Shown: one piece after another, positions 8,710-10,100 of the stretch
How the letters are laid out: every line of letters starts with the position of its first letter
Position numbering within the stretch: position 1 is the stretch's first letter
Virus record (IMG/VR): IMGVR_UViG_3300042542_001409
Coordinates: 1-41,641 of that record
DNA: 41,641 nucleotides
Strand: one strand, 5' to 3'
Source: a virus
The notes under the pieces: generated by a model
Databases searched by the model: none
Told to the model about the DNA's origin: nothing
Seen by the model: only the letters and a program-made list of their open reading frames with translations
Program-made: the position numbers and the translations under genes

Positions 8710-8865
8710 TGCTCTCTCCTTTGTGTTACGCCAAAAATGACAAACGAAGTGTCGGCGATACCGAAGTAGATGTCAAACAGTTATTGAACATGACCCTTTG
8801 CATAACTCAGGTATTATGTACCTATGCTATGATTTCCCTATCGACATCAACAAAGGAGAATCTCG
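8710..8865. promoter_or_regulatory. Divergent early control region
   Basis: 156 bases separate the leftward operon from the rightward Cro-like gene. A consensus minus-strand -35 (TTGACA, 8776-8771) faces left; the matching -10 at 17 bases is poor (GACACT). Rightward hexamers are only approximate (TTGCAT 8798-8803 and TATGCT 8823-8828). An inverted repeat at 8809-8823 lies between them. The layout fits a Cro-like switch region, but the exact promoters are not certain. Confidence 0.55.
8809..8823. promoter_or_regulatory. Operator-like inverted repeat
   Basis: AGGTA and TACCT arms flank a five-base centre. It overlaps the likely rightward promoter just ahead of the Cro-like gene, as expected for an autoregulatory operator. 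I did not find a second copy nearby. Confidence 0.4.
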
Positions 8866-9054
8866 ATGACTGTAGCGGAGCGTCAAAATAACACAATGAC
8901 CATAGAAGAGCTTCAATCTAAAACTACGCTCTACAAAATTGCCAAGGAACTTAACCTCACATACCCTGCTGTATTCAAGTGGAAGAAGAGAGGCAAGATC
9001 CCCAAGCTGCGCTTGTTTGAGATCAAAGAACTGCATCCCGAATGGTTTGTTTGA
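8866..9054 (+). CDS. Cro-like helix-turn-helix regulator
   Basis: 62 residues from ATG 8866, with AAAGGAG seven bases upstream. The core SKTTLYKIAKELNLTYPAVF, followed by KWKKRGKIPKLRLFEIKELH, has the Cro/YdaS pattern: a helix-turn-helix at about 20-41, then a short basic stretch and a dimerisation helix. It is the first rightward early gene next to a divergent control region, so it probably binds operators there. No partner repressor of CI type was found. Confidence 0.85.
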   Translation: MTVAERQNNTMTIEELQSKTTLYKIAKELNLTYPAVFKWKKRGKIPKLRLFEIKELHPEWFV

Positions 9055-9078
9055 CGGGGTATTAAATTTATGTATACT
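9051..9078 (+). promoter_or_regulatory. Strong sigma70-type promoter for the structured RNA
   Basis: TTGACG at 9051-9056 and TATACT at 9073-9078 are separated by 16 bases, five of six matches in each box. The -35 overlaps the stop codon of the Cro-like gene. Transcription would begin near 9084-9086, directly at the first hairpin of the RNA below. Confidence 0.7.
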
Positions 9079-9084
9079 TCGACC

Positions 9085-9265
9085 TGTCAGATGTGGCAAT
9101 CTGATAGTAAGCCAAGAGCAGTTAACCCCATGGTTTTTTGGTGGGGCATGAAAGAAGTGTCTAGGGTGGGTAACCACGGCAGAGGTAACTCTGAAGACTC
9201 TTGGCGAACTAACACTTTGCCCATGCCAACGGGACTTGCCCCACCAAAACATCATGGGGTTTTTC
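9085..9265 (+). ncRNA. Structured pseudoknotted RNA, about 180 nt, no known family recognised
   Basis: Helices seen directly: a 5' hairpin (9087-9092 with 9099-9104); a 25-position helix of 9124-9148 with 9237-9261 having 23 Watson-Crick pairs, one G-U and one mismatch; inside it, 9155-9160 with 9212-9217 continuing as 9162-9164 with 9209-9211 around one bulged base. Two small hairpins follow (9166-9177 and 9180-9193), each capped by a GUAA (GNRA) tetraloop. An eight-base perfect match, 9111-9118 with 9198-9205, pairs the 5' flank to the interior and makes a pseudoknot. The long helix runs into TTTTTCCTTTT, like an intrinsic terminator. A promoter lies directly upstream. Roles to consider: regulatory RNA, put-like antitermination RNA or ribozyme. 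Confidence 0.75.
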
Positions 9266-9515
9266 CTTTTGGACGGCGCAATACGGTACGTCAGTGGTTG
9301 CGTTTGAGATACCCCGATACACGGCAAGCCACATCGGGGAACGTGGGCTTAGTCTTAGAGCGTGGTGGTTGTAGACAGTCTGAGACAGTGCAGTTGCGAT
9401 GGCATGGCTCCGAAGAGCAGATCATCGAAGCACAGGCGAACTTTGGTTTTGACCACGGTAAGGCTGTGCTTTGCTCCAACATTCACCAAAGAGCAGTAGT
9501 AAATAGGAGAGAGTA
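9266..9515 (+). other. Structured leader continuation without a convincing gene
   Basis: A 148-codon frame crosses this stretch (9070-9516) but its product looks unlike a protein and would run through the RNA helices. Instead, more pairing is visible: 9312-9318 with 9333-9339; loop bases 9326-9330 with 9346-9350, a possible second pseudoknot; 9397-9401 with 9423-9427 enclosing 9407-9410 with 9415-9418 (CGAA loop); and 9428-9435 with 9464-9471. It may be an extension of the upstream RNA or the 5' leader of the replication operon. Confidence 0.5.
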
Positions 9516-9728
9516 ATGGATAGAGTGGAGATTACACGGGAATGGTTAGATAGCGTGAGTGATGAACAAGGACTCACTAAAGGCCAGCAAGTTATATTGA
9601 ACAACCTTACTGGCGAACCCCCTTACGTTGGTAAATTTATTACTTCTCAACAAGCCAATTTTTTAATGCATTGCAGGGGTTATAGGCCAAAACCCGTCAT
9701 CAAATTTGGTCGTGGCGAACATGAGTAA
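9516..9728 (+). CDS. Small hypothetical protein, first gene after the structured leader
   Basis: 70 residues from ATG 9516, with ribosome site AGGAGAG. The C-terminal part (FITSQQANFLMHCRGYRPKP, then VIKFGRG) is basic and might contact nucleic acid. No family recognised. It heads the rightward replication operon. Confidence 0.75.
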   Translation: MDRVEITREWLDSVSDEQGLTKGQQVILNNLTGEPPYVGKFITSQQANFLMHCRGYRPKPVIKFGRGEHE

Positions 9729-9749: not shown

Positions 9750-10100
9750 ATGGGAACCGAAGGCTTTAATAGATTTTGGGAGGCTTGGCCTAAGAGTGTA
9801 AGAAAGGGCGGCAAGTCCGATTGTGAGAAACGATGGAACCGCTACTACTGCGACTCATGTGTTGATCAGATCATTAAGCATGTAGAGTGGATGAAGACTA
9901 CCGATGACTGGCGCAAAGCAGATGGCGCATTCATTCCTGCCCCTGCCGTCTACCTTAACCAAAGACGCTGGGACGGTGCTGACATACCCGAAGTAAAAAA
10001 ACCCGTAGATGTGTTGAAGCAAATTGAAGAAAGCAGGAAAGCTGCTGTGCCGATGCCTGATGACATCCGACAAAAACTTAATGCACTACGGGGTAAATGA
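9750..10100 (+). CDS. Replication-protein-like (C-terminal domain type)
   Basis: 116 residues with AAAGGAGAGAG upstream. The sequence GFNRFWEAWPKSVRKGGKSD, then CEKRWNRYYCDSCVDQIIKH, is the motif found at the C-terminus of phage replication initiators and helicase loaders (F-x-x-F-W-x-x-Y/W-P-K-K-x-x-K). The second half (AFIPAPAVYLNQRRWDGADI) also fits. Only this domain is present, without the usual winged-helix N-terminus, so it may work with another protein such as the winged-helix product at 5998-6333. It probably recruits the host replisome. Confidence 0.7.
   Translation: MGTEGFNRFWEAWPKSVRKGGKSDCEKRWNRYYCDSCVDQIIKHVEWMKTTDDWRKADGAFIPAPAVYLNQRRWDGADIPEVKKPVDVLKQIEESRKAAVPMPDDIRQKLNALRGK

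Follow-up and report, generated by a model that had tools for sequence, protein, structure and literature searches.

A structured RNA with a promoter-like upstream element and a terminator-like end, linked to a second structured RNA in uncultured freshwater phages

Background

To our knowledge, very few controls of transcription that need no protein have been described, put being the example, an RNA which binds the zinc-binding domain of the beta' subunit of RNA polymerase and suppresses termination. P4 CI RNA and P1 C4 RNA are phage immunity RNAs derived from leaders, which pair in trans with the leader, act by premature termination and hold their specificity in short pairing sequences. The put RNA of phage HK022 is about 70 nt long and consists of two stem-loops (PMC9378689). 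The late gate of lambdoid phages, PR'-tR', is marked by a Q binding element between -35 and -10 and a -10-like pause element. In this gate a promoter is followed by a short leader, a terminator and the operon, and the gate is opened by Q, which acts via DNA sites in the promoter (PMC6606751). GOLLD and ROOL are large structured RNAs encoded by phages; both pseudoknots and kissing loops occur in them, and their function is unknown (PMC12286853).

The RNA described here, named RNA1, is filed under none of these systems, since its anatomy is unmatched in all of them. Like HK022 putL and putR it would act in cis within early transcripts of a phage, as a structured and noncoding RNA. However, put has no terminator, whereas RNA1 is twice as long and comprises a pseudoknot, a probable kissing loop and a terminator-like end. 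With PR'-tR' the RNA1 cassette shares the order of promoter, short leader, terminator and operon, a likeness of sequence layout only, but what is conserved in it is an elaborate fold of the RNA, and it occurs in early as well as late operons. The closest layout is that of lambdoid PR'/tR' and the closest position that of HK022 put. As structured phage RNAs of unknown function GOLLD and ROOL are nearest, but they measure about 600-800 nt and often lie near tRNA islands, while RNA1 has 140-190 nt and a terminator closure; their Rfam models gave no match to RNA1. Unlike in P4 CI and P1 C4, the variable pairing of RNA1 lies within one molecule and is tied to a conserved fold.

Results

Fold of RNA1

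The window, i.e. the whole stretch of DNA that was analysed, comprises the 41,641 nucleotides of the IMG/VR virus record IMGVR_UViG_3300042542_001409. Positions 9086-9264 are a real structured RNA (RNA1), which lies in the following surroundings:

8866-9054, plus strand: Cro-like HTH protein, upstream neighbour (phrog_8008, E 9e-5; P22_Cro below the cut-off)
9051-9078, plus strand: predicted sigma-70-type promoter of RNA1, TTGACG (9051-9056), 16 nt, TATACT (9073-9078), 10 of 12 consensus matches
9086-9105, plus strand: H1, 5' hairpin of 7 bp with loop GUGGCA at 9093-9098
9111-9118, plus strand: 5' arm of the pseudoknot (PK), GCCAAGAG, partner of 9198-9205; the hypervariable arm of the family
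9124-9148 paired with 9237-9261, plus strand: closing helix P2, 25 positions with 23 Watson-Crick pairs, one G-U and one mismatch
9124-9148, plus strand: 5' strand of P2, 96-98% of cells paired among the copies
9155-9160, plus strand: 5' strand of P3, AAGUGU, paired with 9212-9217; P3 encloses the 3' arm of the pseudoknot
9166-9177, plus strand: GNRA hairpin a, GUGG-GUAA-CCAC, an insert of type A
9180-9193, plus strand: GNRA hairpin b, CAGAG-GUAA-CUCUG, an insert of type A
9198-9205, plus strand: 3' arm of the pseudoknot, CUCUUGGC, eight-base pairing with 9111-9118
9212-9217, plus strand: 3' strand of P3, ACACUU, from the predicted fold
9220-9233, plus strand: H4, hairpin CCC-AUGCCAAC-GGG with loop UGCCA at 9224-9228
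9237-9261, plus strand: 3' strand of P2; the base of the helix is a terminator-like stem ending in GGGGUU
9260-9264, plus strand: U tract, presumed 3' end of RNA1 with the form of an intrinsic terminator, judged from sequence only
about 9265-9497, plus strand: RNA2 (type i), a second conserved noncoding structured RNA, directly behind the terminator
9750-10100, plus strand: replication-initiation-like protein, downstream neighbour (phrog_9474, E 3e-15)

All helices match base by base the drawing in an earlier note, which had been made from the letters of the window. The 25-position helix claimed there was confirmed by direct reading and recovered independently by blastn as a 25-nt inverted repeat of 92%. 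The two hairpins capped by GUAA and the eight-base pseudoknot were found in place as well, and the arms of the latter are complementary across homologues. The nested fold alone has a minimum free energy of -73.2 kcal/mol compared to -52.4 +/- 4.5 kcal/mol for shuffled sequences (z -4.7), and none of 200 shuffles was as good. The earlier picture thus holds for the fold, the promoter and the T-rich end, but it missed the downstream RNA2, the contact between the two loops and the fact that the family is modular. Its statement that no phage RNA class is known to have this layout agrees with the search of the window RNA against the covariance models of Rfam 15, which gave no match at the gathering score or at E <= 10. 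No tRNA or tmRNA was found in the window or at RNA1 elements. What is new is the RNA class; the idea of gating itself has known parallels.

Relatives and classes

Relatives were fetched by the replication-initiation-like protein, which led to 67 viral loci, and L071 was fetched by one exact DNA pattern. Comparison by blastn revealed the RNA of the window at 95% and in the same place in L033, while the similarity of L071 to the window is confined to 9084-9265 (97.8%). In about 40 other loci the sequence at the RNA1 site differs, but the 230 bases behind it are shared. This differing sequence is the same RNA: H1 carrying GUGGCA is followed by a PK arm and the long closing helix, within which an inner helix encloses the second arm, then by a hairpin whose loop contains GCCA, and finally by the closing strand and GGGGTTTTT. 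When a pattern of these features was applied to viral contigs, it gave at least 120 stretches, and about 108 unique RNA1s from uncultured viral contigs remained among the matches listed after a check of the H1 stem. The carriers are many uncultured freshwater phages. Type A, which has the two extra GNRA hairpins, comprises the window, L033, L071, L096, L107, L113 and L172. In total, at least six classes of RNA1 differ in sequence and share a layout of promoter, 5' hairpin, a variable long-range loop pairing and a terminator-like closing helix.

The window matches the covariance model R1 of types A/B (H1 with GUGGCA loop, PK, P2, P3, H4 and the GGGUUUUU end) with 90 bits and E 2e-22, a match by construction, as this model was built from 64 sequences that include the window. 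Types A/B were not found in the phages of INPHARED, no genuine copy was present in bacterial genomes (GTDB), and plasmids gave no match to the type of the window. Twenty-six pattern matches in genomes were rejected as RNA1, as the H1 stem failed or they were judged by eye to be due to chance; five covariance-model matches in 399 genomes from the order to which Herminiimonas belongs turned out to be ordinary terminators of the AAAAACCCCGC..GCGGGGTTTTT kind. One annotated record, an uncultured podovirus, contains class C together with RNA2 type ii.

Covariation and the pseudoknot

In an alignment of 64 diverse RNA1 copies, 96.2% of the pair cells hold standard pairs compared to 85.8% after shuffling, and 178 double changes were observed versus 41 expected. 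Neither level was reached by any of 500 shuffles, and pairing falls to about 42% when the partners are slid. For H1, 99.6% of pair cells are kept with double changes in four of the seven pairs; the H4 stem is paired to 98.4% and the helix equivalent to P3 covaries. In L033, L071, L096, L107, L172 and L113, the loop of GNRA hairpin a stays within GNRA (GUAA/GCAA), and hairpin b shows compensated stems (CAGAG/CUCUG, CAGGG/CCCUG and CGAGG/CCUCG) with the loops GUAA, GAAA and GCAA.

The pseudoknot was tested separately and without an alignment, by comparing own arms with partner-swapped arms in 100 unique arm pairs. Uninterrupted Watson-Crick runs in own arms comprise 6-14 bp, mostly 9-10, those with swapped partners mostly 4-5 bp. 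The arms are hypervariable and complementarity is retained in every copy: between copies of divergent phages which have one to three changes in about 130 other positions, four to seven of nine positions can differ in both arms, with pairing intact. Compensating substitutions in homologous loci, the check which the earlier note had set for its structured RNA, were therefore found, including those in the pseudoknot. Diversifying selection on the arms is suggested by their variability but is not claimed here, since drift constrained by pairing alone can account for it; because the genes of these phages are far apart, the divergence of the arms may represent free drift under this constraint. A search for trans targets of the arms within their own contigs gave no excess over swapped arms.

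A probable kissing contact

In the window, the H1 loop sequence UGGCA (9094-9098) is complementary to the H4 loop UGCCA (9224-9228), and a kissing contact between the two loops is likely. Covariation is silent on this contact in types A/B, because the loop sequences hardly vary there; the UGGC and GCCA loops, that of H1 included, are equally constant among copies that were fetched without selection for loops. Other classes offer more variation. Class D, which is reached weakly by the A/B model via L241 (33 bits), has UGGU opposite ACCA in most copies and UGGC opposite GCCA in L241. In class C the H1 loop is hypervariable, and each of the 22 unique copies has an inner loop complementary to it over 7-9 bp; in class I a hypervariable H1 loop with a matching inner loop was seen in two copies. 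A rough geometric argument suggests that a stack of H1, the pseudoknot and the kissing helix could run beside the closing helix like a strut. As a candidate antiterminator switch, pairing of the post-terminator CUUUUGG with GCCAAGAG of H4 was considered; it is complementary in type B and broken in L071, L172 and L093, and the candidate was rejected.

Predicted promoter and terminator form

The promoter claimed in the earlier note reads TTGACG-16-TATACT and precedes H1, and its spacing is fixed in about 107 copies: RTGTATAAT stands at -16 to -8 from H1 behind a T-rich -35 region, and each base of the TATAAT hexamer is conserved at 74-83%. Classes C and D, which are unrelated in sequence, have TTGACA/TATAAT-like elements of their own at the same place. 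At the other end, the closing helix has AACCCC...GGGGUUUUU at its base, which resembles an intrinsic terminator in form, and the U tract is kept in relatives. GGGTTTTT occurs in every copy found by protein neighbourhood, i.e. independent of a pattern, and the GGGGUUUUU end is present in copies that were not selected for it. Ordinary bacterial terminators also triggered the RNA1 covariance model. A simple terminator scan omits the end of RNA1 because the loop of the stem has about 90 nt. Judged by these elements, transcription probably starts near H1 and stops at the U tract, which would yield a stable short product.

Coding potential

An open reading frame of 148 aa (9070-9516) runs through RNA1, and a protein-coding gene, or a DNA element, with the paired bases as a by-product has to be considered. 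For coding speak the open frame itself, which has an open counterpart in about 70 of the 108 copies, and the total length, which keeps one phase modulo 3 in 74 of 108; moreover, in the deposited record MW202484.1 a related element bears the annotation of a hypothetical protein. On the other hand, variable columns are evenly spread over the codon positions (29/31/26), the phase of the 5' half of RNA1 is evenly distributed, as in a random frame, RNA2 carries indels of 1-2 nt, and base pairs covary. Neither Pfam nor PHROG has a family for ORF 9070-9516, and Pfam has none for the minus-strand ORF 8827-9327 either. Coding by either frame was rejected for lack of a family match and, in the plus frame, of codon-position bias, and we regard this explanation as hardly credible. 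Homologues that keep a reading frame in place of paired bases, which the earlier note had named as the finding that would speak against a structured RNA, did not appear. The constant phase of the total length despite the absent coding signal is an unexplained residue. The related cassette of L283 (MW202484.1, 3536-3895), deposited as hypothetical protein UOF77725.1, illustrates the risk of mis-annotation.

RNA2 and the exchange of modules

RNA2 type i is conserved at 85-90% DNA identity among relatives, compared to about 68% amino acid identity of the replication protein, and has covarying helices. At its 3' end a possible H-type pseudoknot was noticed (GCACAG-AGCGAA..CUGUGC-UUUGCU). RNA1 lies upstream of RNA2 type i in all 36 newly fetched, unselected contigs, 34 of them with types A/B (L307 being assigned by eye) and two with class I, so that two classes of RNA1 precede this type. 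In 75 contigs anchored on RNA2 type ii, a promoter and an RNA1 closed by a terminator lie ahead of most RNA2s; these RNA1s belong to class A/B, C, D or rarer ones, at least six classes of the same layout. In L004, L005 and L007, whose replication proteins are 96-97% identical to that of the window, class C with type ii replaces type A with type i. Hence, the classes of RNA1 and RNA2 are mixed and matched. The two RNAs are separable, since an ORF lies between them in L083. A clustering of RNA2 was set aside because it included coding sequence and merged types.

The RNA2 of L072 (1302-1417) and L088 (4454-4571) is the Rfam family Betaproteobacteria-1 (RF02932, E 1e-16), and its place directly behind RNA1 gives this orphan family a phage context. 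RF02932 has no match within the window, and no RNA1 of the class of the window was found upstream of RF02932 in bacterial genomes, so the coupling is not universal outside phages. A match resembling int-alpA RNA (RF02996) was seen at L097 4260-4332, behind RNA1 and RNA2 and just upstream of the start of the replication-initiation gene. Neither the RF02932 nor the RF02996 model matches RNA1 or the window. In L173, a tRNA-like element (GGTGGGGCGC..GGTTCAAGTCCCGGGCGCTCCACCA) with a long insert lies directly behind RNA1 at about 2060-2215 and is not called by ARAGORN. L245, a UViG with an isolate-looking IMG identifier, has RNA2 type ii behind a small HTH gene with no recognisable RNA1.

Genomic context

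Cassettes are found after cro, before or directly after the replication gene, and between terL and the head-protein gene; most copies of RNA1 lie in the early region. Wherever the arrangement was read by eye, RNA1 is co-directional with its recognisable neighbours. An automatic tally of orientation by the longest ORF on either strand was too noisy and was set aside.

Discussion

We tentatively favour reading the cassette as a cis-acting gate, in which a promoter and a clasped, probably conditional, terminator leader are followed by RNA2 and then by the gene, and give this reading somewhat less than an even chance. The sigma-70 promoter would fire constitutively, with the transcript beginning at H1, which would fold first and wait. 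After synthesis of the 3' strand of P2, the pseudoknot (or the H1 loop in other classes) would clasp the loop beside the terminator and thereby brace P2, and most transcripts would stop at the U tract, giving a short and stable RNA. Some condition, e.g. a phage or host factor or an RNA polymerase modified upstream, might then allow readthrough via RNA2 into the operon. Overall, this would combine a constitutive promoter with a conditional stop, the control being built into an elaborate RNA.

Several observations count for such a gate, namely the fold, the covariation, the promoter at fixed spacing, the GGGGUUUUU end, the absence of a coding signal, the shared layout and the linkage to RNA2. 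A clasp near the terminator moreover recurs in unrelated sequence, given the kissing H1 loop of class C. The gate is favoured because RNA1 is co-directional and coupled to RNA2, and because an absolute stop would be dangerous between terL and head genes: it would cut off essential genes in the operons, and the stop should therefore be relievable. Against it count the terminator stem, whose loop is unlike that of textbook terminators, and a fold which looks mutually compatible rather than bistable, with neither an antitermination factor nor a switch conformation identified. The extreme conservation outside the pseudoknot could equally mean a trans-acting RNA that binds a host partner.

The latter is the main rival, possible though doubtful: RNA1 would be a trans-acting structured ncRNA, moron-like with its own promoter and terminator, which as a stable molecule binds a host component (RNA polymerase, ribosome, nuclease or defence protein) or regulates phage genes, and RNA2 would be a second such RNA or a leader. 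Its autonomous ends, the strong conservation, the varied positions (after cro, before or after the replication gene, between terL and head genes) and the near-identity of RNA1 in phages with no other regional similarity, as in L071, count in its favour. However, a free-standing sRNA gene would need neither co-direction, where checked, nor the coupling to RNA2 in 36 of 36 contigs, and the PK arms are unmatched elsewhere in their own contigs. Rather improbable is a specificity RNA related in principle to P4 CI, P1 C4 or the incompatibility RNAs of plasmids, where terminated RNA1 pairs in trans with nascent relatives via the hypervariable arms and forces their termination, thus defining immunity groups. 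The exchange of four to seven of nine arm positions on both sides in an almost fixed RNA, the recurrence of hypervariable paired loops in classes C and I and the many copies ahead of a replication gene would suit it, but the flanking genes are so divergent (about 68% amino acid identity for the replication protein) that the arms may simply be drifting with pairing as their one constraint, the location of some copies between terL and head genes does not fit, and no repressor-like genetics are known.

Among the three functions proposed in the earlier note, a regulatory RNA is still the best. Its second proposal, a put-like antitermination RNA for the replication operon, would have the nascent RNA stay on the polymerase so that later terminators are ignored. 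The position directly behind cro in an early operon is in line with this, given that in HK022 the PR transcript runs for about 270 nt before it reaches putR (PMC9378689), and RNA2 could take the put role behind the stop of RNA1. RNA1 could work in this way, but it is built differently, as it is longer (140-190 nt), pseudoknotted and ended by a terminator-like closure and has no Rfam match even at E 10; the restriction to the replication operon does not fit those copies that follow the replication gene or lie between terL and head genes. We consider put-like processive antitermination very unlikely. For its third proposal, a ribozyme, positive evidence is lacking: the compact pseudoknotted fold and the vicinity of some copies to terL might point to self-cleavage or to a packaging RNA, but no Rfam ribozyme model matches and most copies are in the early region, which makes either function exceedingly improbable.

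Extending the cis gate, one may speculate, although we consider it unlikely, that these cassettes are modular RNA gates: interchangeable RNA1 terminators, shut by a 5' hairpin clasp with a phage-specific pairing key, would be coupled to interchangeable RNA2s and move between early and late operons, which they would control with no dedicated protein. If RNA folding alone does gate operons, the cassette would add to the few protein-free controls of transcription; if RNA1 acts in trans, it would be a new kind of phage RNA effector. In either case, a widespread and strongly conserved RNA with clean pseudoknot covariation has no Rfam family and is absent from sequenced isolate phages, and for these reasons it has so far escaped notice or been mistaken in annotation for a hypothetical protein. 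The natural swaps of the arms are ready-made variants for asking whether pairing or sequence matters.

Finally, a motif (GGAT..ATCCACCCTTGG.GAACCTATG..AAAGGA) was noticed before the start of the replication gene in L071, L145, L171, L178 and L190, which is possibly a translational control element.
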